50,000 nt of DNA from the NCBI RefSeq assembly GCF_026151205.1, contig NC_087084.1, positions 605,812 through 655,811 of the forward strand. Direction: 5' to 3'. Positions 5,053 through 35,883 of this stretch are shown piece by piece. The notes beneath the pieces are model-generated. The model ran no database searches and was not told where the DNA came from. It saw only the letters and a program-made list of their open reading frames with translations. Each line of letters opens with the position of its first letter. The stretch's first letter is position 1. The translations under genes were made by a program, and so were the position numbers. The stretch is from Bolinopsis microptera (Eukaryota > Ctenophora > Tentaculata > Lobata > Bolinopsidae).

Positions 5053-8000
5053 TTAAACACCCACCTGATCCTGGCCAGCTATGTGGACCTCTCTAAAGAT
5101 CTGCGTCTCCCCCCTTTTCGCTGTTATATTTATCATAGTAGTCCACACAGTCTCTCCTGTAATCTCCTCCTCTATACCAATATACAGCTGTCCTGGGAAT
5201 GCAAATGTATGGTTACTATGGTTACTAAGGTTACTATGGTTACTCCTTCATACCAACATACAGCTGTCCTGGGAATGTATGGTTACTTTGGTTACTAAGG
5301 TCACTATAGTTACTCCTCTATACCAACATACAGCTGTCCTGGGAATGTATGGTTACTTTGGTTACTAAGGTCACTATAGTTACTCCTCTATACCAACATA
5401 CAGCTGTCCTGGGAATGTATGGTTACTAAGGTTACTATGGCTACTCCTTTATACCAACGTCCAACATACAGCTGTCCACGGAATGGGGTATTTGGAGACA
5501 AAGAGAAATACAAGGATTGGGGAATTGGATAAACTAATTTAAAAACCATATGTAGTCCTGCAGAACGCCCATATGGTTTGCAGAAAGTAGACTAGAAAGT
5601 TAAAGAGAAAGTAGTTTATAAACTATATAAATACTAGATAGGTACCTTTGAGAGAGAATGTAGATTTGTGAGAGACAGGTTTAACAACGACAGGCGGAGA
5701 AGATAACGAGCCTCTAACTGATACAGTTAGATTAGTGTTGTTGTGAACCACACAGCCAGGCCACCAGTCAACACACATCTGAACATGAGGTGTTGTCAAC
5801 ATACTGTTCAAGTGAAATAAGTAAATCTAGAGAAATGTAATAACCTCGCAATAGCGATCAGGTTCACGCGCTAAGAGTGTAAGGTTAAAAGCTGCGCACT
5901 ACATTTCTAAAGTTTTCATTTCTTTGAACAGTTTAGAAACGGCGTCTAAAAATTCACGGCCACTTAAAAATCGAATCACAAAATTCGCGGCAATTTTTTC
6001 CATCCACACCCTTTTGTAAAAAGTCAATATTGAAAGGTTAGGAATTGTTGTTTTTGCAGAAAAACGTGGATTTTGGAGAATGAGGAAGGCGGGTCCGTTA
6101 ATCACACTACCACGGCAACTAAACAACTAGACGCGCGCAAGGGTTGCTTGCGGAGATGTGATGTATAGCCTGTAGTCAGTACATGCGCGGCGCGAGTGTT
6201 TTTTAATGTATTAGGCAATAAGCCCAACGAAACAACGGGCACAATTCTTGTTAATTTCGTCGTTTGAGAAATCCGAATATTTGTGAAATTATGAGTTACT
6301 GTACCGTGTGTTTAGAAAGAGGGTCCCTGGATAAGTGTATCTCTGCCTCCATACTCCAATCTTCTATCTCACTGTGGGGTACCAGTATACTCCTTATCTC
6401 ACAGTCTGGCGGCCTAAACAGAGCAATCAATACTGGGGAGTATGGGGAGGAGAGGGGGGAGTACCAGTATACTCCTTATCTCACAGTCTGGCGGCCTAAA
6501 CAGAGCAATCAATACTGGGGAGTATGGGGAGGAGAGGGGGGAGTACCAGTATACTCCTTATCTCACAGTCTGGCGGCCTAAACAGAGCAATCAATACTGG
6601 GGAGTATGGGGAGGAGAGGGGGGAGTACCAGTATACTCCTTATCTCACAGTCTGGCGGCCTAAACAGAGCAATCAATACTGGGGAGTATGGGGAGGAGAG
6701 GGGGGAGTACCAGTATACTCCTTATCTCACAGTCTGGCGGCCTAAACAGAGCAATCAATACTGGGGAGTATGGGGAGGAGAGGGGGGAGTACCAGTATAC
6801 TCCTTATCTCACAGTCTGGCGGCCTAAACAGAGCAATCAATACTGGGGAGTATGGGGAGGAGAGGGGGGAGTACCAGTATACTCCTTATCTCACAGTCTG
6901 GCGGCCTAAACAGAGCAATCAATACTGGGGAGTATGGGGAGGAGAGGGGGGAGTACCAGTATACTCCTTATCTCACAGTCTGGCGGCCTAAACAGAGCAA
7001 TCAATACTGGGGAGTATGGGGAGGAGAGGGGGGAGTACCAGTATACTCCTTATCTCACAGTCTGGCGGCCTAAACAGAGCAATCAATACTGGGGAGTATG
7101 GGGAGGAGAGGGGGGAGTACCAGTATACTCCTTATCTCACAGTCTGGCGGCCTAAACAGAGCAATCAATACTGGGGAGTATGGGGAGGGAGGGGGGAGTA
7201 CCAGTATACTCCTTATCTCACAGTCTGGCGGCCTAAACAGAGCAATCAATACTGGGGAGTATGGGGAGGAGAGGGGGGAGTACCAGTATACTCCTTATCT
7301 CACAGTCTGGCGGCCTAAACAGAGCAATCAATACTGGGGAGTATCGGGGAGGAGAGGGGGGAGTACCAGTATACTCCTTATCTCACAGTCTGGCGGCCTA
7401 AACAGAGCAATCAATACTGGGGAGTATGGGGAGGAGAGGGGGGAGTACCAGTATACTCCTTATCTCACAGTCTGGCGGCCTAAACAGAGCAATCAATACT
7501 GGGGAGTATGGGGAGGAGAGGGGGGAGTACCAGTATACTCCTTATCTCACAGTCTGGCGGCCTAAACAGAGCAATCAATACTGGGGAGTATGGGGAGGAG
7601 AGGGGGGAGTACCAGTATACTCCTTATCTCACAGTCTGGCGGCCTAAACAGAGCAATCAATACTGGGGAGTATGGGGAGGAGAGGGGGGAGTACCAGTAT
7701 ACTCCTTATCTTACAGTCTGGCGGCCTAAACAGAGCAATCAATACTGGGGAGTATGGGGAGGAGAGGGGGGAGTACCAGTATACTCCTTATCTTACAGTC
7801 TGGCGGCCTAAACAGAGCAATCAATACTGGGGAGTATGGGGAGGAGAGGGGGGAGTACCAGTATACTCCTTATCTCACAGTCTGGCGGCCTAAACAGAGC
7901 AATCAATACTGGGGAGTATGGGGAGGAGAGGGGGGAGTACCAGTATACTCCTTATCTCACAGTCTGGCGGCCTAAACAGAGCAATCAATACTGGGGAGTA

Positions 8001-11000
8001 TGGGGAGGAGAGGGGGGAGTACCAGTATACTCCTTATCTCACAGTCTGGCGGCCTAAACAGAGCAATCAATACTGGGGAGTATGGGGAGGAGAGGGGGGA
8101 GTACCAGTATACTCCTTATCTCACAGTCTGGCGGCCTAAACAGAGCAATCAATACTGGGGAGTATGGGGAGGAGAGGGGGGAGTACCAGTATACTCCTTA
8201 TCTCACAGTCTGGCGGCCTAAACAGAGCAATCAATACTGGGGAGTATGGGGAGGAGAGGGGGGAGTACCAGTATACTCCTTATCTCACAGTCTGGCGGCC
8301 TAAACAGAGCAATCAATACTGGGGAGTATGGGGAGGAGAAGGGGGAGTACCAGTATACTCCTTATCTCACAGTCTGGCGGCCTAAACAGAGCAATCAATA
8401 CTGGGGAGTATGGGGAGGAGAGGGGGGAGTACCAGTATACTCCTTATCTCACAGTCTGGCGGCCTAAACAGAGCAATCAATACTGGGGAGTATGGGGAGG
8501 AGAGGGGGGAGTACCAGTATACTCCTTATCTCACAGTCTGGCAGCCTAAACAGAGCAATCAATACTGGGGAGTATGGGGAGGAGAGGGGGGAGTACCAGT
8601 ATACTCCTTATCTCACAGTCTGGCGGCCTAAACAGAGCAATCAATACTGGGGAGTATGGGGAGGAGAGGGGGGAGTACCAGTATACTCCTTATCTCACAG
8701 TCTGGCGGCCTAAACAGAGCAATCAATACTGGGGAGTATGGGGAGGAGAGGGGGGAGTACCAGTATACTCCTTATCTCACAGTCTGGCGGCCTAAACAGA
8801 GCAATCAATACTGGGGAGTATGGGGAGGAGAGGGGGGAGTACCAGTATACTCCTTATCTCACAGTCTGGCGGCCTAAACAGAGCAATCAATACTGGGGAG
8901 TATGGGGAGGAGAGGGGGGAGTACCAGTATACTCCTTATCTCACAGTCTGGCGGCCTAAACAGAGCAATCAATACTGGGGAGTATGGGGAGGGGAGGGGG
9001 GAGTACCAGTATACTCCTTATCTCACAGTCTGGCGGCCTAAACAGAGCAATCAATACTGGGGAGTATGGGGAGGAGAGGGGGGAGTACCAGTATACTCCT
9101 TATCTCACAGTCTGGCGGCCTAAACAGAGCAATCAATACTGGGGAGTATGGGGAGGAGAGGGGGGAGTACCAGTATACTCCTTATCTCACAGTCTGGCGG
9201 CCTAAACAGAGCAATCAATACTGGGGAGTATGGGGAGGAGAGGGGGGAGTACCAGTATACTCCTTATCTCACAGTCTGGCGGCCTAAACAGAGCAATCAA
9301 TACTGGGGAGTATGGGGAGGAGAGGGGGGAGTACCAGTATACTCCTTATCTCACAGTCTGGCGGCCTAAACAGAGCAATCAATACTGGGGAGTATGGGGA
9401 GGAGAGGGGGGAGTACCAGTATACTCCTTATCTCACAGTCTGGCGGCCTAAACAGAGCAATCAATACTGGGGAGTATGGGGAGGAGAGGGGGGAGTACCA
9501 GTATACTCCTTATCTCACAGTCTGGCGGCCTAAACAGAGCAATCAATACTGGGGAGTATGGGGAGGAGAGGGGGGAGTACCAGTATACTCCTTATCTCAC
9601 AGTCTGGCGGCCTAAACAGAGCAATCAATACTGGGGAGTATGGGGAGGAGAGGGGGGGAGTACCAGTATACTCCTTATCTCACAGTCTGGCGGCCTAAAC
9701 AGAGCAATCAATACTGGGGAGTATGGGGAGGAGAGGGGGGAGTACCAGTATACTCCTTATCTCACAGTCTGGCGGCCTAAACAGAGCAATCAATACTGGG
9801 GAGTATGGGGAGGAGAGGGGGGAGTACCAGTATACTCCTTATCTCACAGTCTGGCGGCCTAAACAGAGCAATCAATACTGGGGAGTATGGGGAGGAGAGG
9901 GGGGAGTACCAGTATACTCCTTATCTCACAGTCTGGCGGCCTAAACAGAGCAATCAATACTGGGGAGTATGGGGAGGAGAGGGGGGAGTACCAGTATACT
10001 CCTTATCTCACAGTCTGGCGGCCTAAACAGAGCAATCAATACTGGGGAGTATGGGGAGGAGAGGGGGGAGTACCAGTATACTCCTTATCTCACAGTCTGG
10101 CGGCCTAAACAGAGCAATCAATACTGGGGAGTATGGGGAGGAGAGGGGGGAGTACCAGTATACTCCTTATCTCACAGTCTGGCGGCCTAAACAGAGCAAT
10201 CAATACTGGGGAGTATGGGGAGGAGAGGGGGGAGTACCAGTATACTCCTTATCTCACAGTCTGGCGGCCTAAACAGAGCAATCAATACTGGGGAGTATGG
10301 GGAGGAGAGGGGGGAGTACCAGTATACTCCTTATCTCACAGTCTGGCGGCCTAAACAGAGCAATCAATACTGGGGAGTATGGGGAGGAGAGGGGGGAGTA
10401 CCAGTATACTCCTTATCTCACAGTCTGGCGGCCTAAACAGAGCAATCAATACTGGGGAGTATGGGGAGGAGAGGGGGGAGTACCAGTATACTCCTTATCT
10501 CACAGTCTGGCGGCCTAAACAGAGCAATCAATACTGGGGAGTATGGGGAGGAGAGGGGGGAGTACCAGTATACTCCTTATCTCACAGTCTGGCGGCCTAA
10601 ACAGAGCAATCAATACTGGGGAGTATGGGGAGGAGAGGGGGGAGTACCAGTATACTCCTTATCTCACAGTCTGGCGGCCTAAACAGAGCAATCAATACTG
10701 GGGAGTATGGGGAGGAGAGGGGGGAGTACCAGTATACTCCTTATCTCACAGTCTGGCGGCCTAAACAGAGCAATCAATACTGGGGAGTATGGGGAGGAGA
10801 GGGGGGAGTACCAGTATACTCCTTATCTCACAGTCTGGCGGCCTAAACAGAGCAATCAATACTGGGGAGTATGGGGAGGAGAGGGGGGAGTACCAGTATA
10901 CTCCTTATCTCACAGTCTGGCGGCCTAAACAGAGCAATCAATACTGGGGAGTATGGGGAGGAGAGGGGGGAGTACCAGTATACTCCTTATCTCACAGTCT

Positions 11001-14000
11001 GGCGGCCTAAACAGAGCAATCAATACTGGGGAGTATGGGGAGGAGAGGGGGGAGTACCAGTATACTCCTTATCTCACAGTCTGGCGGCCTAAACAGAGCA
11101 ATCAATACTGGGGAGTATGGGGAGGAGAGGGGGGGGGTACCAGTATACTCCTTATCTCACAGTCTGGCGGCCTAAACAGAGCAATCAATACTGGGGAGTA
11201 TGGGGAGGAGAGGGGGGAGTACCAGTATACTCCTTATCTCACAGTCTGGCGGCCTAAACAGAGCAATCAATACTGGGGAGTATGGGGAGGAGAGGGGGGA
11301 GTACCAGTATACTCCTTATCTCACAGTCTGGCGGCCTAAACAGAGCAATCAATACTGGGGAGTATGGGGAGGAGAGGGGGGAGTACCAGTATACTCCTTA
11401 TCTCACAGTCTGGCGGCCTAAACAGAGCAATCAATACTGGGGAGTATGGGGAGGAGAGGGGGGAGTACCAGTATACTCCTTATCTCACAGTCTGGCGGCC
11501 TAAACAGAGCAATCAATACTGGGGAGTATGGGGAGGAGAGGGGGGAGTACCAGTATACTCCTTATCTCACAGTCTGGCGGCCTAAACAGAGCAATCAATA
11601 CTGGGGAGTATGGGGAGGAGAGGGGGGAGTACCAGTATACTCCTTATCTCACAGTCTGGCGGCCTAAACAGAGCAATCAATACTGGGGAGTATGGGGAGG
11701 AGAGGGGGGAGTACCAGTATACTCCTTATCTCACAGTCTGGCGGCCTAAACAGAGCAATCAATACTGGGGAGTATGGGGAGGAGAGGGGGGAGTACCAGT
11801 ATACTCCTTATCTCACAGTCTGGCGGCCTAAACAGAGCAATCAATACTGGGGAGTATGGGGAGGAGAGGGGGGAGTACCAGTATACTCCTTATCTCACAG
11901 TCTGGCGGCCTAAACAGAGCAATCAATACTGGGGAGTATGGGGAGGAGAGGGGGGAGTACCAGTATACTCCTTATCTCACAGTCTGGCGGCCTAAACAGA
12001 GCAATCAATACTGGGGAGTATGGGGAGGAGAGGGGGGAGTACCAGTATACTCCTTATCTCACAGTCTGGCGGCCTAAACAGAGCAATCAATACTGGGGAG
12101 TATGGGGAGGAGAGGGGGGAGTACCAGTATACTCCTTATCTCACAGTCTGGCGGCCTAAACAGAGCAATCAATACTGGGGAGTATGGGGAGGAGAGGGGG
12201 GAGTACCAGTATACTCCTTATCTCACAGTCTGGCGGCCTAAACAGAGCAATCAATACTGGGGAGTATGGGGAGGAGAGGGGGGAGTACCAGTATACTCCT
12301 TATCTCACAGTCTGGCGGCCTAAACAGAGCAATCAATACTGGGGAGTATGGGGAGGAGAGGGGGGAGTACCAGTATACTCCTTATCTCACAGTCTGGCGG
12401 CCTAAACAGAGCAATCAATACTGGGGAGTATGGGGAGGAGAGGGGGGAGTACCAGTATACTCCTTATCTCACAGTCTGGCGGCCTAAACAGAGCAATCAA
12501 TACTGGGGAGTATGGGGAGGAGAGGGGGGAGTACCAGTATACTCCTTATCTCACAGTCTGGCGGCCTAAACAGAGCAATCAATACTGGGGAGTATGGGGA
12601 GGAGAGGGGGGAGTACCAGTATACTCCTTATCTCACAGTCTGGCGGCCTAAACAGAGCAATCAATACTGGGGAGTATGGGGAGGAGAGGGGGGAGTACCA
12701 GTATACTCCTTATCTCACAGTCTGGCGGCCTAAACAGAGCAATCAATACTGGGGAGTATGGGGAGGAGAGGGGGGAGTACCAGTATACTCCTTATCTCAC
12801 AGTCTGGCGGCCTAAACAGAGCAATCAATACTGGGGAGTATGGGGAGGAGAGGGGGGAGTACCAGTATACTCCTTATCTCACAGTCTGGCGGCCTAAACA
12901 GAGCAATCAATACTGGGGAGTATGGGGAGGAGAGGGGGGAGTACCAGTATACTCCTTATCTCACAGTCTGGCGGCCTAAACAGAGCAATCAATACTGGGG
13001 AGTATGGGGAGGAGAGGGGGGAGTACCAGTATACTCCTTATCTCACAGTCTGGCGGCCTAAACAGAGCAATCAATACTGGGGAGTATGGGGAGGAGAGGG
13101 GGGAGTACCAGTATACTCCTTATCTCACAGTCTGGCGGCCTAAACAGAGCAATCAATACTGGGGAGTATGGGGAGGAGAGGGGGGAGTACCAGTATACTC
13201 CTTATCTCACAGTCTGGCGGCCTAAACAGAGCAATCAATACTGGGGAGTATGGGGAGGAGAGGGGGGAGTACCAGTATACTCCTTATCTCACAGTCTGGC
13301 GGCCTAAACAGAGCAATCAATACTGGGGAGTATGGGGAGGAGAGGGGGGAGTACCAGTATACTCCTTATCTCACAGTCTGGCGGCCTAAACAGAGCAATC
13401 AATACTGGGGAGTATGGGGAGGAGAGGGGGGAGTACCAGTATACTCCTTATCTCACAGTCTGGCGGCCTAAACAGAGCAATCAATACTGGGGAGTATGGG
13501 GAGGAGAGGGGGGAGTACCAGTATACTCCTTATCTCACAGTCTGGCGGCCTAAACAGAGCAATCAATACTGGGGAGTATGGGGAGGAGAGGGGGGAGTAC
13601 CAGTATACTCCTTATCTCACAGTCTGGCAGCCTAAACAGAGCAATCAATACTGGGGAGTATGGGGAGGAGAGGGGGGAGTACCAGTTGCAGTATACTCCT
13701 TATCTCACAGTCTGGCGGCCTAAACAGAGCAATCAATACTGGGGAGTATGGGGAGGAGAGGGGGGAGTACCAGTATACTCCTTATCTCACAGTCTGGCGG
13801 CCTAAACAGAGCAATCAATACTGGGGAGTATGGGGAGGAGAGGGGGGAGTACCAGTATACTCCTTATCTCACAGTCTGGCGGCCTAAACAGAGCGATCAA
13901 TACTGGGGAGTATGGGGAGGAGAGGGGGGAGTACCAGTATACTCCTTATCTCACAGTCTGGCGGCCTAAACAGAGCGATCAATACTGGGGAGTATGGGGA

Positions 14001-17000
14001 GGAGAGGGGGGAGTACCAGTATACTCCTTATCTCACAGTCTGGCGGCCTAAACAGAGCAATCAATACTGGGGAGTATGGGGAGGAGAGGGGGGAGTACCA
14101 GTATACTCCTTATCTCACAGTCTGGCGGCCTAAACAGAGCAATCAATACTGGGGAGTATGGGGAGGAGAGGGGGGAGTACCAGTATACTCCTTATCTCAC
14201 AGTCTGGCGGCCTAAACAGAGCAATCAATACTGGGGAGTATGGGGAGGAGAGGGGGGAGTACCAGTATACTCCTTATCTCACAGTCTGGCGGCCTAAACA
14301 GAGCAATCAATACTGGGGAGTATGGGGAGGAGAGGGGGGAGTACCAGTATACTCCTTATCTCACAGTCTGGCGGCCTAAACAGAGCAATCAATACTGGGG
14401 AGTATGGGGAGGAGAGGGGGGAGTACCAGTATACTCCTTATCTCACAGTCTGGCGGCCTAAACAGAGCAATCAATACTGGGGAGTATGGGGAGGAGAGGG
14501 GGGAGTACCAGTATACTCCTTATCTCACAGTCTGGCGGCCTAAACAGAGCAATCAATACTGGGGAGTATGGGGAGGAGAGGGGGGAGTACCAGTATACTC
14601 CTTATCTCACAGTCTGGCGGCCTAAACAGAGCAATCAATACTGGGGAGTATGGGGAGGAGAAGGGGGAGTACCAGTATACTCCTTATCTCACAGTCTGGC
14701 GGCCTAAACAGAGCGATCAATACTGGGGAGTATGGGGAGGAGAGGGGGGAGTACCAGTATACTCCTTATCTCACAGTCTGGCGGCCTAAACAGAGCGATC
14801 AATACTGGGGAGTATGGGGAGGAGAAGGGGGGAGTACCAGTATACTCCTTATCTCACAGTCTGGCGGCCTAAACAGAGCAATCAATACTGGGGAGTATGG
14901 GGAGGAAAGGGGGGAGTACCAGTATACTCCTTATCTCACAGTCTGGCGGCCTAAACAGAGCAATCAATACTGGGGAGTATGGGGAGGAGAAGGGGGGAGT
15001 ACCAGTATACTCCTTATCTCACAGTCTGGCGGCCTAAACAGAGCAATCAATACTGGGGAGTATGGGGAGGAAAGGGGGGAGTACCAGTATACTCCTTATC
15101 TCACAGTCTGGCGGCCTAAACAGAGCAATCAATACTGGGGAGTATGGGGAGGAGAAGGGGGAGTACCAGTATACTCCTTATCTCACAGTCTGGCGGCCTA
15201 AACAGAGCGATCAATACTGGGGAGTATGGGGAGGAGAGGGGGGAGTACCAGTATACTCCTTATCTCACAGTCTGGCGGCCTAAACAGAGCGATCAATACT
15301 GGGGAGTATGGGGAGGAGAAGGGGGAGTACCAGTATACTCCTTATCTCACAGTCTGGCGGCCTAAACAGAGCAATCAATACTGGGGAGTATGGGGAGGAA
15401 AGGGGGGAGTACCAGTATACTCCTTATCTCACAGTCTGGCGGCCTAAACAGAGCAATCAATACTGGGGAGTATGGGGAGGAGAGGGGGGAGTACCAGTAT
15501 ACTCCTTATCTCACAGTCTGGCGGCCTAAACAGAGCAATCAATACTGGGGAGTATGGGGAGGAAAGGGGGGAGTACCAGTATACTCCTTATCTCACAGTC
15601 TGGCGGCCTAAACAGAGCAATCAATACTGGGGAGTATGGGGAGGAGAGGGGGGAGTACCAGTATACTCCTTATCTCACAGTCTGGCGGCCTAAACAGAGC
15701 AATCAATACTGGGGAGTATGGGGAGGAGAGGGGGGAGTACCAGTATACTCCTTATCTCACAGTCTGGCGGCCTAAACAGAGCAATCAATACTGGGGAGTA
15801 TGGGGAGGAGAGGGGGGAGTACCAGTATACTCCTTATCTCACAGTCTGGCGGCCTAAACAGAGCAATCAATACTGGGGAGTATGGGGAGGAGAGGGGGGA
15901 GTACCAGTATACTCCTTATCTCACAGTCTGGCAGCCTAAACAGAGCAATCAATACTGGGGAGTATGGGGAGGAGAGGGAGGAGTACCAGTATACTCCTTA
16001 TCTCACAGTCTGGCGGCCTAAACAGAGCAATCAATACTGGGGAGTATGGGGAGGAGAGGGGGGAGTACCAGTATACTCCTTATCTCACAGTCTGGCAGCC
16101 TAAACAGAGCAATCAATACTGGGGAGTATGGGGAGGAGAGGGGGGAGTACCAGTATACTCCTTATCTCACAGTCTGGCAGCCTAAACAGAGCAATCAATA
16201 CTGGGGAGTATGGGGAGGAGAGGGGGGAGTACCAGTATACTCCTTATCTCACAGTCTGGCGGCCTAAACAGAGCAATCAATACTGGGGAGTATGGGGAGG
16301 AGAGGGGGGAGTACCAGTATACTCCTTATCTCACAGTCTGGCGGCCTAAACAGAGCAATCAATACTGGGGAGTATGGGGAGGAAAGGGGGGAGTACCAGT
16401 ATACTCCTTATCTCACAGTCTGGCGGCCTAAACAGAGCAATCAATACTGGGGAGTATATATATATGGGAAGGGGCGTTGGGGTAGGGAGGGGGAGGGGGA
16501 GTGGGAGGGAGGGGGAGGGGCCAGGGGGAGTGGGAGGGAGGGGGAAGGGAAGTAGGGGGGAGGGGAGGGGGAGGGGGATTAGGGGGGAGGGGGAGTAGGG
16601 GGAGGGGTAGTAGGGGGAGGGGGAGTAAGGGAGGATGGGGGAGGGGGAGTGGGAGGGGGAAGGGAAAGTAGGGGGGAGGGGAGGAGGGGGAGGGGGATAA
16701 GGGGGGAGGGGGATTAGGGGGGAGGGGGAGTAGGGGGAGGGGGAGTGTGAGGGGGAGGGGGAAGGGAAGTAGGGGGGAGGGGAGGGGGGAGGGGGATAAG
16801 GGGGAGGGGGATTAGGGGGGAGGGGGATTAGGGGGGAGGGGAGAGTAGGGGAGGGGGAGTGTGAGGGGGAGGGGGAAGGGAAGTAGGGGGAGGGGAGGGG
16901 GATAAGGGGGGAGGGGGATAAGGGGGGGAGGGGGATTAGGGGGAGGGGGATAAGGGGGAGGGGGAGTAGGGGGAGGGGGAGTGTGAGTGGGGAGGGAGGG

Positions 17001-20000: not shown

Positions 20001-23000
20001 ATGACGTCACAAGACGGAGAATATGACGTCACAAGACGGAGTATATGACGTCACAAGACGGAATATATGACGTCACTACCCTCCTACCTGACAGGTTGGG
20101 ACCACTGAACAGTGTCTGAATTAAGAGAGAAGCTCATAGCGTGTTCTCCTGGTCCTAACACGTAGCTCTTATTCACCTCTCCAGCTCCTATAGACTGAAC
20201 CTGGGTTAATGGGATCAACACTCAGTCAACACTCAGTCAACATTCAGTTAACTCAGTTTTTGCTGCAAAGTAGTGTATGCAGTCTCCCCCGTGACATCAT
20301 GTCACGTGGTATGACGTCATGTCACGTGGTATGACGTCATGTCACGTGGTATGACGTCATGTCACGTGGTATGACGTCATGTCACGTGGTATGACGTCAT
20401 GTCACGTGGTATGACGTTATGTCACGTGGTATGCCGTCATGTCACGTGGTATGACGTCATGTCACGTGGTATGACGTTATGTCACGTGGTATGCCGTCAT
20501 GTCACGTGGTATGACGTCATGTCACGTGGTATGACGTCATGTCGCGTGGTATGACGGCATGTCACGTGTGTTTGTCTGTTTGTGTGTAAACCTGTAAAGT
20601 TGAGTATGTAGTCTCTCCCCGCGACGGGTCCAGAGGTAGGAAACTGCACTGAACATTTAACACTGTCCTGTTGTTAACACACAGGCCACCTGGAATTTAG
20701 TGAGATTAAAGTGAGGTTAAATTTAATTTCAATACAGAGTTTAATGGAAATGGCAGGAAGGAATACTGACTAATTATAGAAGAGTGAAGTGTTAACCTGT
20801 GATACGGATGTAGTTGCAACCTCCCTTCCTCTCCACTAACCTGTGATACGGATGTAGTTGCAACCTCCCTTCCTCTCCACTAACCTGTGATACGGATGTA
20901 GTTGCAACCTCCCTTCCTCTCCACTAACCTGTGATACGGATGTAGTTGCAACCTCCCTTCCTCTCCACTAACCTGTGATACGGATGTAGTTGCAACCTCC
21001 CTTCCTCTCCACTAACCTGTGATACGGATGTAGTTGCAACCTCCCTTCCTCTCCACTAACCTGTGATACGGATGTAGTTGCAACCTCCCTTCCTCTCCAC
21101 TAACCTGTGATACGGATGTAGTTGCAACCTCCCTTCCTCTCCACTAACCTGTGATACGGATGTAGTTGCAACCTCCCTTCCTCTCCACTAACCTGTGATA
21201 CGGATGTAGTTGCAACCTCCTTCCTCTCCACTAACCTGTGATACGGATGTAGTTGCAACCTCCCTTCCTCTCCACTAACCTGTGATACGGATGTAGTTGC
21301 AACCTCCCTTCCTCTCCACTAACCTGTGATACGGATGTAGTTGCAACCTCCCTTCCTCTCCACTAACCTGTGATACGGATGTAGTTGCAACCTCCCTTCC
21401 TCTCCACTAACCTGTGATACGGATGTAGTTGCAACCTCCCTTCCTCTCCACTAACCTGTGATACGGATGTAGTTGCAACCTCCCTTCCTCTCCACTAACC
21501 TGTGATACGGATGTAGTTGCAACCTCCCTTCCTCTCCACTAACCTGTGATACGGATGTAGTTGCAACCTCCCTTCCTCTCCACTAACCTGTGATACGGAT
21601 GTAGTTGCAACCTCCCTTCCTCTCCACTAACCTGTGATACGGATGTAGTTGCAACCTCCCTTCCTCTCCACTAACCTGTGATACGGATGTAGTTGCAACC
21701 TCCCTTCCTCTCCACTAACCTGTGATACGGATGTAGTTGCAACCTCCCTTCCTCTCCACTAACCTGTGATACGGATGTAGTTGCAACCTCCCTTCCTCTC
21801 CACTAACCTGTGATACGGATGTAGTTGCAACCTCCCTTCCTCTCCACTAACCTGTGATACGGATGTAGTTGCAACCTCCCTTCCTCTCCACTAACCTGTG
21901 ATACGGATGTAGTTGCAACCTCCCTTCCTCTCCACTAACCTGTGATACGGATGTAGTTGCAACCTCCCTTCCTCTCCACTAACCTGTGATACGGATGTAG
22001 TTGCAACCTCCCTTCCTCTCCACTAACCTGTGATACGGATGTAGTTGCAACCTCCCTTCCTCTCGACTATAATAAACATACCGTTATCCTCCACCACTGA
22101 GCCTGCCGCTAGATCTGACAGTTTAGGGTTTAGTGACTGACAACGTGTTTACTGACAAATTTCAAGGACTCATATACAAAATATATGCGTATTGAGGTAG
22201 AAATGAAGATTACCAATAGAGGACTCATATATAAAACATAAAGTATTGAGGTAGAAAGTAAGATTACCAATAGAGGACTCATATACAAAATATGAAGTAT
22301 TGAGGTAGAAAGTAAGATTACCAATAGAGGACTCATATACAAAATATGAAGTATTGAGGTAGAAAGTAAGATTACCAATAGAGGACTCATATACAAAATA
22401 TGAAGTATTGAGGTAGAAAGTAAGATTACCAATAGAGGACTCATATACAAAATATGAAGTATTGAGGTAGAAAGTAAGATTACCAATAGAGGACTCATAT
22501 ACAAAATATGAAGTATTGAGGTAGAAATGAAGATTACCAATAGAGGACTCATATACAAAATATGAAGTATTGAGGTAGAAAGTAAGATTACCAATAGAGG
22601 ACTCATATACAAAATATGAAGTATTGAGGTAGAAAGTAAGATTACCAATAGAGGACTCATATACAAAATATGAAGTATTGAGGTAGAAATGAAGATTACC
22701 AATAGAGGACTCATATAAAAAATATGAAGTATTGAGGTAGAAAGTAAGATTACCAATAGAGGACTCATATACAAAATATGAAGTATTGAGGTAGAAAGTA
22801 AGATTACCAATAGAGGACTCATATACAAAATATGAAGTATTGAGGTAGAAAGTAAGATTACCAATAGAGGACTCATATATAAAACATAAAGTATTGAGGT
22901 AGAAAGTAAGATTACCAATAGAGGACTCATATATAAAACATAAAGTATTGAGGTAGAAAGTAAGATTACCAATAGAGGACTCATATACAAAATATGAAGT

Positions 23001-26000
23001 ATTGAGGTAGAAAGTAAGATTACCAATAGAGGACTCATATACAAAATATGAAGTATTGAGGTAGAAAGTAAGATTACCAATAGAGGACTCATATACAAAA
23101 TATGAAGTATTGAGGTAGAAATGAAGATTACCAATAGAGGACTCATATACAAAATATGAAGTATTGAGGTAGAAAGTAAGATTACCAATAGAGGACTCAT
23201 ATATAAAATATGAAGTATTGAGGTAGAAAGTAAGATTACCAATAGAGGACTCATATACAAAATATGAAGTATTGAGGTAGAAAGTAAGATTACCAATAGA
23301 GGACTCATATAAAAAATATGAAGTATTGAGGTAGAAAGTAAGATTACCAATAGAGGACTCATATACAAAATATGAAGTATTGAGGTAGAAATGAAGATTA
23401 CCAATAGAGGACTCATATACAAAATATGAAGTATTGAGGTAGAAATGAAGATTACCAATAGAGGACTCATATACAAAATATGAAGTATTGAGGTAGAAAT
23501 GAAGATTACCAATAGAGGACTCATATACAAAATATGAAGTATTGAGGTAGAAAGTAAGATTACCAATAGAGGACTCATATACAAAATATGAAGTATTGAG
23601 GTAGAAAGTAAGATTACCAATAGAGGACTCATATACAAAATATGAAGTATTGAGGTAGAAAGTAAGATTACCAATAGAGGACTCATATACAAAATATGAA
23701 GTATTGAGGTAGAAAGTAAGATTACCAATAGAGGACTCATATATAAAATATGAAGTATTGAGGTAGAAAGTAAGATTACCAATAGAGGACTCATATACAA
23801 AATATGAAGTATTGAGGTAGAAATGAAGATTACCAATAGAGGACTCATATACAAAATATGAAGTATTGAGGTAGAAATGAAGATTACCAATAGAGGACTC
23901 ATATATAAAACATAAAGTATTGAGGTAGAAAGTAAGATTACCAATAGAGGACTCATATACAAAATATGAAGTATTGAGGTAGAAAGTAAGATTACCAATA
24001 GAGGACTCATATACAAAATATGAAGTATTGAGGTAGAAAGTAAGATTACCAATAGAGGACTCATATACAAAATATGAAGTATTGAGGTAGAAAGTAAGAT
24101 TACCAATAGAGGACTCATATACAAAATATGAAGTATTGAGGTAGAAAGTAAGATTACCAATAGAGGACTCATATATAAAATATGAAGTATTGAGGTAGAA
24201 AGTAAGATTACCAATAGAGGACTCATATACAAAATATGAAGTATTGAGGTAGAAAGTAAGATTACCAATAGAGGACTCATATACAAAATATGAAGTATTG
24301 AGGTAGAAAGTAAGATTACCAATAGAGGACTCATATAAAAAATATGAAGTATTGAGGTAGAAAGTAAGATTACCAATAGAGGACTCATATACAAAATATG
24401 AAGTATTGAGGTAGAAAGTAAGATTACCAATAGAGGACTCATATATAAAACATAAAGTATTGAGGTAGAAAGTAAGATTACCAATAGAGGACTCATATAC
24501 AAAATATATGCGTATTGAGGTAGAAATGAAGATTACCAATAGAGGACTCATATATAAAACATAAGTATTGAGGTAGAAAGTAAGATTACCAATAGAGGAC
24601 TCATATACAAAATATGAAGTATTGAGGTAGAAAGTAAGATTACCAATAGAGGACTCATATATAAAATATGAAGTATTGAGGTAGAAAGTAAGATTACCAA
24701 TAGAGGACTCATATACAAAATATGAAGTATTGAGGTAGAAAGTAAGATTACCAATAGAGGACTCATATACAAAATATGAAGTATTGAGGTAGAAAGTAAG
24801 ATTACCAATAGAGGACTCATATACTAAAATATGAAGTATTGAGGTAGAAATGAAGATTACCAATAGAGGACTCATATACAAATATGAAGTATTGAGGTAG
24901 AAAGTAAGATTACCAATAGAGGACTCATATACAAAATATGAAGTATTGAGGTAGAAAGTAAGATTACCAATAGAGGACTCATATATAAAACATAAAGTAT
25001 TGAGGTAGAAAGTAAGATTACCAATAGAGGACTCATATACAAAATATGAAGTATTGAGGTAGAAATGAAGATTACCAATAGAGGACTCATATACAAAATA
25101 TGAAGTATTGAGGTAGAAAGTAAGATTACCAATAGAGGACTCATATACAAAATATGAAGTATTGAGGTAGAAATGAAGATTACCAATAGAGGACTCATAT
25201 ACAAAATATGAAGTATTGAGGTAGAAAGTAAGATTACCAATAGAGGACTCATATATAAAATATGAAGTATTGAGGTAGAAAGTAAGATTACCAATAGAGG
25301 ACTCATATACAAAATATGAAGTATTGAGGTAGAAAGTAAGATTACCAATAGAGGACTCATATACAAAATATGAAGTATTGAGGTAGAAATGAAGATTACC
25401 AATAGAGGACTCATATATAAAACATAAAGTATTGAGGTAGAAAGTAAGATTACCAATAGAGGACTCATATATAAAACATAAAGTATTGAGGTAGAAAGTA
25501 AGATTACCAATAGAGGACTCATATACAAAATATGAAGTATTGAGGTAGAAAGTAAGATTACCAATAGAGGACTCATATATAAACATAAAGTATTGAGGTA
25601 GAAAGTAAGATTACCAATAGAGGACTCATATACAAAATATGAAGTATTGAGGTAGAAAGTAAGATTACCAATAGAGGACTCATATACAAAATATGAAGTA
25701 TTGAAGTAGAAATGAAGATTACCAATAGAGGACTCATATACAAAATATGAAGTATTGAGGTAGAAAGTAAGATTACCAATAGAGGACTCATATACAAAAT
25801 ATGAAGTATTGAGGTAGAAAGTAAGATTACCAATAGAGGACTCATATACAAAATATGAAGTATTGAGGTAGAAATGAAGATTACCAATAGAGGACTCATA
25901 TACAAAATATGAAGTATTGAGGTAGAAAGTAAGATTACCAATAGAGGACTCATATACAAAATATGAAGTATTGAGGTAGAAAGTAAGATTACCAATAGAG

Positions 26001-29000
26001 GACTCATATACAAAATATGAAGTATTGAGGTAGAAAGTAAGATTACCAATAGAGGACTCATATATAAAATATGAAGTATTGAGGTAGAAAGTAAGATTAC
26101 CAATAGAGGACTCATATACAAAATATGAAGTATTGAGGTAGAAATGAAGATTACCAATAGAGGACTCATATATAAAATATGAAGTATTGAGGTAGAAAGT
26201 AAGATTACCAATAGAGGACTCATATACAAAATATGAAGTATTGAGGTAGAAAGTAAGATTACCAATAGAGGACTCATATACAAAATATGAAGTATTGAGG
26301 TAGAAATGAAGATTACCAATAGAGGACTCATATATAAAACATAAAGTATTGAGGTAGAAAGTAAGATTACCAATAGAGGACTCATATATAAAATATGAAG
26401 TATTGAGGTAGAAAGTAAGATTACCAATAGAGGACTCATATACAAAATATGAAGTATTGAGGTAGAAAGTAAGATTACCAATAGAGGACTCATATACAAA
26501 ATATGAAGTATTGAGGTAGAAAGTAAGATTACCAATAGAGGACTCATATACAAAATATGAAGTATTGAAGTAGAAATGAAGATTACCAATAGAGGACTCA
26601 TATACAAAATATGAAGTATTGAGGTAGAAAGTAAGATTACCAATAGAGGACTCATATACAAAATATGAAGTATTGAGGTAGAAAGTAAGATTACCAATAG
26701 AGGACTCATATACAAAATATGAAGTATTGAGGTAGAAAGTAAGATTACCAATAGAGGACTCATATACAAAATATGAAGTATTGAGGTAGAAAGTAAGATT
26801 ACCAATAGAGGACTCATATACAAAATATGAAGTATTGAGGTAGAAAGTAAGATTACCAATAGAGGACTCATATACAAAATATGAAGTATTGAGGTAGAAA
26901 GTAAGATTACCAATAGAGGACTCATATACAAAATATGAAGTATTGAGGTAGAAAGTAAGATTACCAATAGAGGACTCATATACAAAATATGAAGTATTGA
27001 GGTAGAAAGTAAGATTACCAATAGAGGACTCATATATAAAATATGAAGTATTGAGGTAGAAAGTAAGATTACCAATAGAGGACTCATATACAAAATATGA
27101 AGTATTGAGGTAGAAATGAAGATTACCAATAGAGGACTCATATATAAAATATGAAGTATTGAGGTAGAAAGTAAGATTACCAATAGAGGACTCATATACA
27201 AAATATGAAGTATTGAGGTAGAAAGTAAGATTACCAATAGAGGACTCATATAAAAAATATGAAGTATTGAGGTAGAAAGTAAGATTACCAATAGAGGACT
27301 CATATATAAAACATAAAGTATTGAGGTAGAAAGTAAGATTACCAATAGAGGACTCATATATAAAATATGAAGTATTGAGGTAGAAAGTAAGATTACCAAT
27401 AGAGGACTCATATATAAAATATAAAGTATTGAGGTAGAAATGAAGATTACCAATAGAGGACTCATATACAAAATATGAAGTATTGAGGTAGAAAGTAAGA
27501 TTACCAATAGAGGACTCATATATAAAACATAAAGTATTGAGGTAGAAAGTAAGATTACCAATAGAGGACTCATATATAAAATATGAAGTATTGAGGTAGA
27601 AATGAAGATTACCAATAGAGGACTCATATATAAAATATGAAGTATTGAGGTAGAAAGTAAGATTACCAATAGAGGACTCATATATAAAACATAAAGTATT
27701 GAGGTAGAAAGTAAGATTACCAATAGAGGACTCATATACAAAATATGAAGTATTGAGGTAGAAAGTAAGATTACCAATAAAGGACTCATATACAAAATAT
27801 GAAGTATTGAGGTAGAAATGAAGATTACCAATAGAGGACTCATATATAAAACATAAAGTATTGAGGTAGAAAGTAAGATTACCAATAGAGGACTCATATA
27901 TAAAACATAAAGTATTGAGGTAGAAAGTAAGATTACCAATAGAGGACTCATATACAAAATATGAAGTATTGAGGTAGAAAGTAAGATTACCAATAGAGGA
28001 CTCATATACAAAATATGAAGTATTGAGGTAGAAAGTAAGATTACCAATAGAGGACTCATATACAAAATATGAAGTATTGAGGTAGAAAGTAAGATTACCA
28101 ATAGAGGACTCATATACAAAATATGAAGTATTGAGGTAGAAAGTAAGATTACCAATAGAGGACTCATATACAAAATATGAAGTATTGAGGTAGAAAGTAA
28201 GATTACCAATAGAGGACTCATATACAAAATATGAAGTATTGAGGTAGAAAGTAAGATTACCAATAGAGGACTCATATACAAAATATGAAGTATTGAGGTA
28301 GAAAGTAAGATTACCAATAGAGGACTCATATACAAAATATGAAGTATTGAGGTAGAAAGTAAGATTACCAATAGAGGACTCATATACAAAATATGAAGTA
28401 TTGAGGTAGAAAGTAAGATTACCAATAGAGGACTCATATACAAAATATGAAGTATTGAGGTAGAAAGTAAGATTACCAATAGAGGACTCATATACAAAAT
28501 ATGAAGTATTGAGGTAGAAAGTAAGATTACCAATAGAGGACTCATATAATATAAAATATAAAGTATTGAGGTAGAAAGTAAGATTACCAATAGAGCGAGA
28601 CCAGGAAGGGTGTATGTTCTCCAAAGCCACATAGACGGGTTTAGTCAGGTCCCAGTAGCAAGCAACAGTGCTCTTACCTTCACAACTCACATATCTGCTA
28701 CCATTCTGAGGAGGGGGGGGGGGGGGGGGGGGGCTTTACTTTACTTTACTTTACTTTACTTTACTTTACTTTACTTTACTTTACTTTACTTTACTTTACT
28801 TTACTTTACTTTACTTTACTTTACTTTACTTTACTTTACTTTACTTTACTTTACTTTACTTTACTTTACTTTACTTTACTTTACTTTACTTTACTTTACT
28901 TTACTTTACTTTACTTTACTTTACTTTACTAACCAGCATTAGTTGAGCGGAGTAGGATGTCTCGTTAACTACAAACGTCTCAAAGAGGGACACACTGAGA

Positions 29001-29671
29001 TGGTCCCCCCAGCTCCTCTTCACAGAGTTCAGACAAGGGAGGAGAGAGGGGGACATGGCCAGGCTGGTTGAGTCCAAACATAGCGAGACGGTGGTTTTAG
29101 TGGGGCGCGCTGAGGAGGGGTCAATTATATGTAATCTAGTGGGGGGGGGAATGTACTGTAGTGGGGCGCGCTGAGGAGGGGTCAATTATATGTAATGTAG
29201 TGGGGGGGGGGGGGGGGCAATGTACTGTAGTGGGGCGCGCTGAGGAGGGGTCAATTATATGTAATGTAGTGGGGGGGGGCAATGTAATGTAGTGCGGGGG
29301 GGGGGGGGGGGGGGGGTCAATTATAAGTAATGTAGTGGGGGGTCAAAGTGGGGGGGGGGGGGAAGAAAGTGAAAATGTTGCCGCTCAGATATTGATATTG
29401 TATCAGCTAAACAAATGTAACCCAGGTAACCAAGGCAACCAAGGGAATCAGGGTAATCAAGGTAACTGAGGTAACCAAGATAACAAGGTAACCAAGGTAT
29501 TACCTTGAAGGTAACCCTCAACTTACAAGTAACCACGGTAACGTTGGACGTGACGTCATAACCCTGACTCCTGTCACGTGACAGGAATGAAGCTTGTAGT
29601 TGAGATCTAGCTACCAGAGTATAGAGTAGGGTGGAGTAGTCCAGGTAGTGCACGTCACTGCTACACCTCAC
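5053..29671 (-). CDS. multi-exon extracellular glycoprotein, weakly integrin-alpha-like, 5' end missing
   Basis: Fourteen exons on the minus strand (high to low): A 29671-29527, B 29109-28934, C 28705-28588, D 22114-22028, F 20689-20592, G 20200-20088, G2 19685-19655, H 19353-19252, I 19096-19011, J 18483-18376, K 17690-17632, L 6432-6305, M 5778-5646, N 5192-5053. The phases 0/1, 1/0, 0/1, 1/1, 1/0, 0/2, 2/0, 0/0, 0/2, 2/2, 2/1, 1/0, 0/1 match at all junctions, and strong GTAAGT donors follow A, G2, I and J. Together they give 507 residues and a TAA stop. About ten N-glycosylation sequons (NVT, NET, NGS, NRT, NKS, NQT, NNT, NLT, NIT and others) and scattered cysteines indicate a secreted or cell-surface chain. 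The SRP motif after a short strand, FIVRNNFAEDLLISL (exon H) and CVDWWPGC...NLTVSVRGSL (exon M) recall integrin thigh and calf domains. No propeller, membrane helix or GFFKR is visible, so this family call is weak. A donor at 5064 could replace the stop. A 14-codon first exon at 30003-29962 is possible but unproven. The donor of K (GTACCA) is poor. Confidence 0.72.
5193..5475. repeat. ~67-bp repeat carrying the exon N acceptor, about five copies
   Basis: Repeated blocks contain, on the minus strand, TTCCCAG followed by GACAGCTGTAT and TGGTATAGAGGAG. These are the acceptor and first ~27 bases of exon N. The blocks are spaced by GTTACTATAG-type motifs. The copy joined to exon N (5192) is the one that continues in frame. 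Confidence 0.8.
5543..5579. repeat. short inverted repeat
   Basis: AAACCATATG (5543-5552) pairs with CATATGGTTT (5570-5579) across a 17-base loop, within the M-N intron. Confidence 0.5.
5779..6304. other. intron L-M of the minus-strand gene
   Basis: No tandem array and no convincing extra exon. Contains a GC-richer patch with CGCGC motifs at about 6130-6195. Confidence 0.5.
6379..16456. repeat. 82-bp satellite, about 123 copies, seeded by the exon L acceptor
   Basis: The period is 82 bp across about 10.1 kb. Read on the minus strand, each unit has a pyrimidine tract (CCCCCCTCTCCTCCCC), ATACTCCCCAG, then about 54 bases identical to the start of exon L (TATTGATTGCTC... to ...ACTGGTACC). Copies at 9.66-13.62 kb are almost identical to one another. 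Both ends carry more variants: AGCGATCAA, GGAAAGG, GGCAGCC, a one-base indel at 7190, and a 6-bp insertion at 13687. Because 82 is not a multiple of three, the recurring 73-residue frames are artefacts of the period. Confidence 0.97.
16457..17631. repeat. G-rich purine minisatellite, 1.2 kb
   Basis: Almost pure G/A on the plus strand, built from GGGGGA, GGGGGATTAGGGG, GGGAAGTAGGGG and GAGTGTGAGGGGG. These are arranged in a loose ~120-bp higher-order pattern. It has very high G-quadruplex and triplex potential. It lies at the donor side of intron K-L, directly after exon K in transcription order. Minus-strand open frames in it are proline-rich translations of the repeat. Confidence 0.9.
17691..18375. 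other. intron J-K of the minus-strand gene
   Basis: AT-rich, no array. Contains a short palindrome around GTATACCCC/GGGGTATAC at about 18098-18130. Confidence 0.45.
18541..18985 (+). mobile_element. 3' fragment of a non-LTR retrotransposon (LINE)
   Basis: About 110 codons ending at TGA 18886-18888 carry the C-terminal signature of LINE polyproteins: LSEKVARSRWRMLGHVLRG, then PGRRGRP, then a VHDLC..YWRNL end. These match the pattern LSxxxxxRRWRWLGHVLR...GRRxRGRP...WR seen after the reverse transcriptase domain in many LINEs. The 3' UTR and an A-rich AATAAATAATAATG tail follow. It is 5'-truncated, lacks RT and endonuclease domains, and sits antisense in intron I-J of the minus-strand gene. Confidence 0.82.
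19188..19245. repeat. GAGAAA hexamer microsatellite
   Basis: AGAAAGAGAAAG-type tract ending at the exon H donor (19251-19246) in intron H-I. Confidence 0.8.
19822..20079. repeat. 22-bp array of CRE-like sites
   Basis: About 11-12 copies of TGACGTCACAAGACGGAGTA, each with the perfect palindrome TGACGTCA. The array starts next to the exon G donor in intron G-G2. More TGACGTCA and CACGTGA motifs lie at 19727-19790. Confidence 0.95.
20284..20572. repeat. 20-bp array, CRE plus E-box
   Basis: About 14 copies of ATGACGTCATGTCACGTGGT, alternating TGACGTCA and TCACGTGG. It fills much of intron F-G of the minus-strand gene and begins close to the exon F donor. Confidence 0.95.
20794..22064. repeat. 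44-bp satellite carrying the exon D donor, about 29 copies
   Basis: Minus-strand unit: GAGAGGAAGGGAGG, TTGCAACTACATCC, GTATCACAG, then GTTAGTG. The first 37 bases equal the 3' end of exon D and the rest is its GT donor. Copies are almost invariant (one 43-bp copy near 21219). The terminal unit at 20796 has GTTAAC instead of GTTAGT. Fills most of intron D-F. Confidence 0.97.
22170..28590. repeat. 54-bp satellite carrying the exon C donor, about 119 copies
   Basis: Period 54 bp with two alternative centres (GAAAGTAAG or GAAATGAAG) and variable ATACAAAATATG or ATATAAAACATA segments. The minus-strand unit contains CTCTATTG|GTAATC, the junction of exon C and intron C-D. Since 54 is a multiple of three, all three minus frames stay open for up to 1272 codons. 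I read this as intron, not protein, because exon C joins exon D in phase. A coding role is not excluded. Confidence 0.95.
28706..28933 (-). repeat. intron B-C made of a (TTTAC)n tract and a 21-base homopolymer
   Basis: On the minus strand: donor GTTAGT, then about 38 AAAGT units, then 21 C residues (28733-28713), then TCCTCAG. The whole 228-bp intron is microsatellite, and its pyrimidine tract is the C run. Confidence 0.85.
29100..29360. repeat. ~60-bp repeats with G runs, containing copies of the exon B acceptor
   Basis: Three blocks of AGTGGGGCGCGCTGAGGAGG plus GGTCAATTATATGTAA at about 29100, 29160 and 29230 are separated by G runs. On the minus strand each holds CCTCCTCAG|CGCGCCCCACT, the exon B acceptor and first exon bases. 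The copy at 29109 is contiguous with exon B. Confidence 0.85.
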
Positions 29672-30240
29672 CTGAAATTAGTGGTATAATTAATTAATAT
29701 CGTAATTATTATAATTTTAATAACAATATCAGGAACTATCGGTGTTAATGGTTAACACATTTGGTATGATAATTGAAGTGCTTTCCCAAAATGTCAAGTT
29801 GGTTGTTCACAATTTAACCGAGTTATGACCCTTTTAAGGCATGCAGATACGTGATCCAGCGCTTAATCAGTGATATCTTCACTCAATCAATGCTCTGATT
29901 GGTTGGAGACTGCTTATAGGACATCAACCGAAGCGCTATAAGGCGAATTTCTTCTATATACACTAGTAGTGTAGTTTAAAGTAGTACTATAATATATAGA
30001 CATGGTATCAGATTATTGCTCAGCGGAAATCTCAATTTAAACCTACACACCGGGCGACACAGTGATGCAGTGGGTGGGTAGTAGTAGTAACTACACAGTG
30101 TGTAGTGCTTTACTTCTGCTGTGCTTCTTTTCTGCGTTAACATTGCACGTGCTTTTTCCAATCATTACACGTGCTTTTTCCTATCATTGCACGTGCTGTT
30201 TCTTATCAGTGCAGGTGTTTTTTTCCAGTAATCACTAGCC
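29672..30240. promoter_or_regulatory. possible divergent promoter region
   Basis: Lies between exon A of the minus-strand gene and the ATG of a plus-strand gene at 30241. Contains an inverted CCAAT motif (CTGATTGGTTGG, 29895-29906). At 30143-30200 it has three copies of a ~22-bp unit GCACGTGCTTTTTCC-AATCAT, with CACGTG E-boxes. Minus-strand ATG at 30003 could start the minus gene. No TATA box is obvious. Confidence 0.35.
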
Positions 30241-31707
30241 ATGGAGATTGACTATACACTGTAAGGATACTTCTTACACTACATGTCCTTAAACCCTCAT
30301 CCCAATTCACCCCAGACACACCACCCCTCCCCCTTTTTAAAAACATAACTCATCAGATTTTACCCCCCCCCCTTTCAGAAACATAATTCCTTACTCCTTA
30401 GATTGTACCCCCTCCCAATACCCCTCTTAATAAACGCAACCCCTCAAATTGTACCCCATATAGAAACTCAACCCCTCAGATTGTACCACTCTAGAAACTC
30501 AACCCTCAGATTGTACCCCTCTAGAAAATCAACCCCTCAGATTGTACCACTCTAGAAACTCAACCCTCAGATTGTACCCCTCTAGAAAATCAACCCCTCA
30601 GATTGTACCGCCTCTAGAAACTCATCCCCTCAGATTGTACCCCCTCTAGAAACTCATCCCCTCAGATTGTACCCCCTCTAGAAACTCAACCCCTCAGATT
30701 GTACCCCCTCTAGAAACTCAACCCCTCAGATTGTACCCCCTCTAGAAACTCAACCCCTCAGATTGTACCCCTCTAGAAAATCAACCCCTCAGATTGTACC
30801 GCCTCTAGAAACTCATCCCCTCAGATTGTACCCCCTCTAGAAACTCATCCCCTCAGATTGTACCCCCATCTAGAAACTCAACCCCTCAGATTGTACCCCC
30901 TCTAGAAACTCAACCCCTCAGATTGTACCCCCTCTAGAAACTCAACCCCTCAGATTGTACCCCCTCTAGAAACTCAACCCCTCAGACTGTACCCCCTCTA
31001 GAAACTCAACCCCTCAGACTGTACCCCCTTTAGAAACTCAACCCCTCAGATTGTACCCCCTCTAGAAACTCAACCCCTCAGACTGTATTCCCTCTAGAAA
31101 CTCAACCCCTCAGATTGTACCCCTCTTATTAACTCAACCCCTCAGACTGTACCCCATCTAGAAACTCAACCCCTCAGACTGTATCCCCTCTAGAAACTCA
31201 ACCCCTCAGATTGTACCCCCTCTTATTAACTCAACCCCTCAGATTGTACCCCACTGACTACACGCGACGTGTATCCGAGCAGACAAAAAGTGAACCAGAG
31301 ATGAACTTCACAGCAGCCCCTAAATACACACCTCATAACACGTGAGCATATTTAGCATATTTAACATATTTAGCATATTTAGCATATTTAGCATATTTAG
31401 TAAGGTAATCTTATTATATAATATAGGATTTCAATCATTTATTTTTCCGCGATTCTTGTGTTAACCTTTCTTGTACAATATTACTAAATCAAGAGAACAC
31501 ATTCTTCTCATTACAACGTCATTAAATCTCCACAAGACACATAAACCAGACTAAATATTGTAGGCTAATCTTTGTTTGGTCAGTTTATACAAATATGTAG
31601 TAAAACTTATCCAAGCCATAGTATCCATGGTAACGCATACCAGACCCAATAGTCTGCAAAACATGCAGACACAAGCTAATCTGTTGTATAATTGGGACGT
31701 TCTGTAA
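30241..31707 (+). CDS. start of a plus-strand gene, 2-3 exons, product unknown
   Basis: Exon 1 is 30241-30260: GCC ATG G context, an in-frame TAA just upstream, donor GTAAGG. It encodes MEIDYT. Exon 2 is 31243-31341: acceptor CCCCTCAG, donor GTGAGC, phase 2 in and 2 out. It encodes LYPTDYTRRVSEQTK, SEPEMNFTAAP, KYTPHN. A possible terminal exon 3 is 31584-31707. It has acceptor TTTGTTTGGTCAG, matching phase and 40 codons to TAA, but is much weaker. No domain recognised. The intron between exons 1 and 2 is filled by a 32-bp array whose unit contains the exon 2 acceptor. Confidence 0.5.
30420..31250. repeat. 32-bp array carrying an exon acceptor, about 26 copies
   Basis: Unit CCCCTCAGATTGTACCCC, CTCTAGAAACTCAA. 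CCCCTCAG is the acceptor and ATTGTACCCC the first ten bases of the exon at 31243. Variants are CTCTTATTAACTC, CAGACTGTA and CATCTAG. Confidence 0.93.
31342..31396. repeat. CATATTTAG tandem tract at a donor
   Basis: Six copies of a 9-10 bp unit follow the GTGAGC donor at 31342. Confidence 0.7.
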
Positions 31708-32937: not shown

Positions 32938-33022
32938 TATTACCTGCACTGAGAGGGCTGTGTCGATGTCAGTTTTAGCGGAGAGGTTTCTTGCAGTTAC
33001 TTTTAGCAGTTCTAGTTCACGA

Positions 33023-33340
33023 TCAGGAAGCACCAGCGGTAAATCGTACACCCACAGCTCTGAAGAGTAATATCATTATCACCCAATCATAAAGCAACAT
33101 TTGCTTTTCCTTGTTTTGCTTGTTGGCAACACGAAGAGAATTTGGTTTATTAGGACAATTTTCTAAGACCCCAATATAAACATAAAATAAACTAACACAA
33201 TATTCAGAAAATTTTAAAATCAATCAACCAGTCATCAAAATCAGAATATAATTTTATTTGCGATTTTCCCCACACCCGAACCAGAATTTCCCGTTCTTAT
33301 TAAAAAAAGCAGAATCCAATTCATTTAATATCATCACTTT
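33023..33340. other. AT-rich spacer
   Basis: No exon, array or RNA gene recognised. Confidence 0.4.
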
Positions 33341-35630: not shown

Positions 35631-35883
35631 TATAAATCTCACGCACAACTAACTCACTAGATTCCTGTCGCTAAACATTTCTCTAAATTTTCTCACCAGA
35701 CGTCAGTACATATTAGCTAACAGGACTCTAGTAGTAGGGAGTAGAACTTCTGTACCTGTTAGCTAGCTCATACTAATTTGTATTTTAGATCACTAATCTG
35801 AGGCGACAAATTGCATCGCATTTAGTAATACATTGTTTAGTTGTTTTCTCCTTGTTCGTTCGTCTTGTTTCTTGGGTCGGATT

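Follow-up and report, generated by a model that had tools for sequence, protein, structure and literature searches.

The locus analysed here raises the question of whether tandem arrays can grow out of splice sites and, if so, whether splice sites are places where arrays preferentially begin. In the window, a stretch of 50 000 nucleotides of Bolinopsis microptera DNA, an earlier note had proposed that at six exon–intron junctions the adjacent array repeats the splice site together with flanking exon bases, and that the arrays had been seeded there.

The gene that carries most of these junctions was read on the minus strand as 14 exons, A to N, which give a single 520-amino acid open frame spanning 13 introns; the exons measure 75–176 nt and the introns 155 to 11218 bp. 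The exons are A (29527..29671, drawn from its open frame, with boundaries set by eye and no homology in the library), B (28934..29109, acceptor in the terminal copy of an array), C (28588..28705) and D (22028..22114), both with the donor in the first copy of an array, E (20592..20689), F (20088..20200), G (19591..19685), H (19252..19340), I (19011..19096), J (18376..18483), K (17632..17706, donor outside the 82-bp array), L (6305..6413, acceptor in the terminal array copy), M (5646..5778) and N (5065..5192, followed in frame by a stop at 5053–5055 if there is no further splicing). The boundaries were picked by eye from splice-like sites and fitted to frame and phase, so the agreement of phase from A to N is no independent test of the model. 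The A–N protein had no Pfam match, and every match from the PDB searches had an E above 1; a VPS13-like identity, which had been an impression by eye only, was set aside on the same ground (five PF25036 matches lie elsewhere). The lack of Pfam and significant PDB matches, together with the choice of exons by eye, might suggest that the gene is in decay or wrongly modelled, and that the arrays sit in DNA free of splicing constraint. We regard this as improbable, given that the 14 exons produce one open frame and that the dynein cases described below belong to a conserved family, one of them with strong homology across the junction.

All 28 exon ends of this gene were examined with a 24-base window (12 exon plus 12 intron bases, at most four mismatches, search radius 12 kb). 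Five of them proved to be copied into the adjacent intron, namely the acceptors of B (2 copies), L (122) and N (3) and the donors of C (94) and D (27); a stricter short motif gave 118 L acceptors, 118 C donors and 29 D donors, with the functional site counted in. The corresponding arrays, all on the minus strand, were delimited by TRF and by this junction test. The B-acceptor array (29098..29342) has units of 61–69 bp that read CCTCCTCAG|CGCGCCCCACTA, with decoy first-exon bases at 29170 and 29239. The C-donor array (22165..28595) consists of 119 copies of a 54-bp unit, and the D-donor array (20793..22069) of 29 copies of a 44-bp unit with the donor CACAG|GTTAGT. The L-acceptor array (6379..16457) is made of 122.8 copies of an 82-bp unit that holds a pyrimidine tract, the AG and exon bases, and the N-acceptor array (5167..5437) of 3.8 copies of 70–76 bp, with decoy first-exon bases at 5268, 5338 and 5408. 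As had been claimed, the bases on the exon side are identical in exon and array: compared with the neighbouring copy, this holds for 35 nt at L, 37 at D, 12 at B and 8 at C, and exon N has 11 exact bases in common with its neighbouring copy, or 26 by the TRF span.

Five of the six proposed junctions (acceptors B, L and N, donors C and D) are confirmed as lying within arrays that repeat them. The sixth, an acceptor with its first exon base at 31243, falls away for want of a supported exon. Its AG does lie close to the end of a 32-bp array of 25.8 copies (30432..31252, plus strand, TRF), but a tentative 82-amino acid reading across 31243 had no Pfam match, and the AG may be intronic with respect to the minus-strand gene. 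The window holds a second supported gene, which encodes a rhodopsin-family receptor (7tm_1, E 1.2e-14) and occupies about 900–4406 of the plus strand. The window as a whole is array-rich, with 95 overlapping TRF rows.

The view, put forward in the earlier note, that the arrays expanded where they stand, out of DNA that includes the junction, is borne out by the exon bases inside the units and by the privacy of the L array to this locus: a search of the 264.65-Mb genome (232 contigs) for an exact 27-base stretch of the L unit gave 116 copies, all of them in the window. Since this stretch is found nowhere else in the genome, the L array formed in place; the L unit is the only one for which the origin was tested in this way. 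The copies are not uniform, 93 of 118 being equal to the consensus at L and 61 of 118 at C, the remainder with scattered changes. Such scattered differences speak against misassembly of noisy long reads with insertion of copies, as do the independent cases on other contigs; a homopolymer-rich stretch at 35880–37140 does resemble consensus noise, but an assembly artefact is very improbable as the source of the arrays.

How would the splicing machinery choose among so many sites? The score of the functional copy is matched by 112 of 118 at L, 28 of 29 at D, 118 of 118 at C and 3 of 3 at B, and these near-equal scores suggest that position, not strength, decides at these four junctions. At N, the functional acceptor outscores the decoys (3.90 versus 2.45). 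The consequences for the reading frame were followed by translating from decoys, using L copies −1 to −6, the next four donors at D, the three AG copies at N and the two at B. With the inner copies, the first stop fell at residue 9 to 34 of the translated stretch. The frame at B, D, L and N survives only with the exon-proximal copy, in agreement with the earlier view that the terminal copy is needed, and the exon-proximal copy is probably the one spliced, as judged from sequence. The accompanying claim that most other copies shift the frame held for the decoys tested at L, D, N and B, which led to early stops, but was wrong for C. There the array is in frame and stays open from exon C until 24874, over about 68 copies; because the unit is 54 bp long and the frame open, use of inner C donors would add steps of 18 residues in frame.

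The C array might therefore be partly or wholly coding, with exon C running into it and its 18-residue repeats becoming part of the protein, much as the neighbouring receptor gene has coding arrays: its last exon holds arrays of 30, 27 and 30 bp and stays open between 2910 and a stop whose last base is 4406. Besides the unit of 18 codons and the open copies, the weak donor of exon C, at the 5th percentile among sampled donors, would fit such a reading. Eight stops further along the array, copies of 53 and 55 bp that break the frame, and a phase between exons C and D that agrees with the first donor all weigh against it, and we consider it unlikely.

For comparison, junctions were sampled from myosin, CCT, dynein and kinesin genes, in which flanking profile matches fix the junction approximately. 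The search rows taken in were 72 of 73 for myosin, 29 of 35 for CCT, 62 of 67 for dynein and 17 of 109 for kinesin, and 178 of these 180 rows fell within the 253 036 bases examined. Of 117 introns called, limits on score and gap removed 14 and left 103, giving 206 junctions. By the 24-base test 1 of the 206 was duplicated, and by TRF 2 of the 206 were crossed by an array over at least 8 bp; the second crossing, seen by TRF only, is a two-copy dynein case in which the intron side differs. Two paired kinesin genes on C13, the contig to which the window belongs, differ in intron length (122 and 1062 bp); they were considered as a possible natural experiment and rejected, since the longer copy carries what resembles an inverted-repeat insertion and not a junction array.

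One case outside the window is a dynein heavy chain gene on contig C2, which has 12 donor copies at a spacing of 62–65 bp with 53 exon bases per copy. Its spliced peptide aligns to dynein heavy chain over residues 1–73 (E 4.3e-28; AAA_6, E 6.9e-32) and, because this alignment is ungapped, the first copy is fixed as the junction; any of the next three donors leads to a stop. In the dynein gene on C1, where the junction was called solely from profile matches, there is an exact two-copy 55-bp duplication composed of 53 exon nt plus GT, the first donor scoring at the 69th percentile and the second below all sampled donors. Junction-carrying arrays are real, local and recurrent. Copy numbers of 2 (C1 dynein), 12 (C2 dynein), 3–4 (B and N), 29 (D), 119 (C) and 123 (L) look like an expansion series.

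One way in which such arrays could, in this lineage, form a recurrent genome-wide class is recursive removal, in which dual acceptor/donor units such as CACAG|GTTAGT of D would correct mis-splicing by themselves: a mis-splice to an inner copy would rebuild an identical donor, which would be spliced again. If this were true, splice sites would be reservoirs for harmless satellite growth. The AGGT of the D unit scored at the 82nd percentile as a 5′ splice site and at the 62nd as a 3′ splice site. The units at L, N, B and C are without AGGT at the junction, and both dynein units contain AGGT yet score poorly as 3′ splice sites. The probability that we give to recursive removal is low.

Whether junctions are preferred as starting points is a separate matter, and here the earlier proposal of seeding at junctions finds no support in the data examined. 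Under preferential seeding, some process tied to splicing or transcription (R-loops, reverse splicing, junction repair) would start arrays at splice sites more often than elsewhere. In its favour are the five junctions within one gene and the two dynein duplications, both of which begin 53 nt upstream of the donor, in a shared region of the motor domain. However, neither duplication profile has a peak at the junction. In the gene of the window, 5 of 28 junctions were duplicated versus 29–57% of windows 24–96 bp into introns (21–46% without low-complexity sequence); exon interiors were duplicated less than junctions. In the sample, 1 of 206 junctions was duplicated versus 1.4–7.8% of windows at the same intron distances. 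For donors in the sample, between 1 and 5% of windows were duplicated over the stretch that reaches 60 bp into the exon and 96 bp into the intron, two zeros apart, and the junction itself gave 1 of 103 versus 2–5 of 103 in the flanks, numbers too small to separate; among acceptors it was 0 of 103 at the junction and 2–8% at 12–96 bp inside the intron. In the receptor gene, none of 10 junctions tested was duplicated (exons placed by eye), although its introns do contain several arrays.

Crossing arrays were also rarer than under uniform placement. When each array was placed uniformly over its own intron, and crossing was defined as an overlap of at least 8 bp, 8.6 crossing arrays were predicted for the gene of the window and 5 observed; for the 103 sampled introns, 6.2 were predicted and 2 observed. 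The overlap of arrays with splice sites does not, in this small sample, exceed the expectation from intron content, an outcome that the earlier note had itself named, for the genome as a whole, as one that would refute its reading. The gene of the window nevertheless exceeds the sample (5 of 28 versus 1 of 206 by the 24-base test, Fisher p about 1e-4), a comparison between a gene chosen for being striking, searched over a radius of 12 kb, and profile-defined junctions searched over 6 kb. Arrays occupy 88.5% of its introns and 10.3% of those in the sample, and local factors may lie behind the excess.

Genome-wide counts of tandem triplets of splice-site words bear on the same question. The donor word gave 1491 triplets at a spacing of 20–50 bases versus 12 for the reversed word, a longer donor word 781 versus 10, and the acceptor word 1530 versus 205, so that both kinds of word exceed their reversed controls, as preferential seeding would have it; other control words, however, gave 185, 370, 532 and 375. 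As single words, in 303 kb, the donor occurred at 36 per Mb versus 23–46 for controls, and the acceptor word was 2.5-fold commoner than its reverse. Because a few long arrays supply most of the triplets among the matches listed (about the first 100 places), this excess is a hint only, and one that could point to some preference for splice sites. Taken with the profiles and the crossing counts, we judge preferential seeding to be quite unlikely.

The observations are most probably explained by ordinary minisatellite growth in an array-rich genome, which sometimes starts from a segment that happens to straddle a junction. A single tandem duplication would copy the splice site together with a portion of the exon end and of the intron, and the extra copies on the intron side would be spliced out by use of the exon-proximal copy. 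Being removable by splicing, copies on that side would be tolerated by selection and could then expand, presumably through unequal exchange or slippage. Under exon definition, the copy closest to the true exon would be favoured, an expectation that follows from the size of the exons (75–176 nt) in comparison with the introns that hold the largest arrays (1.3–11 kb). Loci of this kind are natural experiments on splice-site choice: as many as about 118 equally scoring copies are in competition, and at most of these junctions only one of them keeps the protein in frame. With members that range from an exact duplication of two copies to an array of 10 kb, the series illustrates how introns may lengthen starting at their own edges.

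The splice site inside a tandem unit is not without precedent. By its title, a 1995 study reportedly concerns a minisatellite that supplies multiple donor splice sites, said to be that of human 6-16/IFI6. As in this Turri-type minisatellite, the tandem unit contains the exon–intron junction here, with 8–37 exon bases at the five junctions and 53 in dynein; unlike it, the present arrays involve donors as well as acceptors, at five junctions in one gene and with as many as about 120 copies, and are known from DNA alone. Zhuo et al. 2007 reportedly deals with introns that arise when exonic AG/GY is tandemly duplicated. For Drosophila, such duplication of exonic AG/GY is described as a source of introns (PMC2891723), and for human paralogs recent repeat-driven introns are described (PMC2812944). 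The present cases are like AG/GY intron gain (PMC2891723) in that exon sequence including a splice site is tandemly duplicated, but differ in that existing introns appear to have been enlarged and that no intron takes both its donor and its acceptor from array copies. The lengths of the introns concerned are not multiples of the unit (11218 bp with a unit of 82, 6473 with 54 and 1338 with 44), and the opposite splice sites lie outside the arrays.

The human polyubiquitin gene UBC carries a tandem array of dual-specific AGGT splice sites, and introns within tandem repeats are known genome-wide, according to the portions of Duan et al. 2024 drawn on here (PMC10809524). The statement in the earlier note that no pattern like this had been described was thus too strong, the UBC array and introns in tandem repeats having been published (PMC10809524); beyond the systems named here, no such pattern was found among the matches listed, which covered titles and abstract openings outside subscription papers. 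In UBC, so far as described in those portions (PMC10809524), the same site serves both ends of the intron and the intron spans a whole number of units, whereas here the other intron end lies outside the array and the arrays reach 6–10 kb. The likeness to UBC (PMC10809524) lies in a splice site within the repeat unit and in many equivalent sites that compete, and AG|GT is present in the D unit and in both dynein units. The arrays described here belong with the splice-site-bearing tandem repeats already known, of which they are a variant on a larger scale.

Two open stretches with splice-like ends were noted by eye on the minus strand of the window, at about 32945–33060 and approximately 44666–44815; these are possibly upstream exons of the minus-strand gene modelled as exons A–N. 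Within intron I–J of that gene, on the plus strand, lies an open reading frame (18529–18885) with words such as RWRMLGHVLRGP, which we take to be typical of the end of a non-LTR retrotransposon. The stretch 35880–37140 consists mostly of homopolymer runs (GC 23.5% across 36001–37000) and looks like consensus noise of the assembly. The plus-strand gene at about 900–4406 was identified as a rhodopsin-family receptor by a 7tm_1 match (E = 1.2e-14). The frame of its last exon is open over 2910–4406, and this exon contains three coding arrays, with units of 30, 27 and 30 bp, that keep the frame.

Outside the window, junction-crossing duplications are present in two dynein genes (L035, C2:21034000–21038200; L041, C1:12741800–12748900); both start 53 nt upstream of a donor, and the part of the motor domain involved is also the same. 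Two closely alike kinesin gene copies (L047 and L048) lie on C13 with ~87 kb between them. One intron measures 1062 bp in one copy versus 122 bp in the other; the extra length comes from an apparent inverted-repeat insertion.

In the genome search, one 32-bp unit containing AGGTAAGT was found arrayed at two sites on contig C1 (36.5 kb and 761 kb). The L unit, the 82-bp repeat carrying the exon L acceptor, differs from it in this occurrence at two places.
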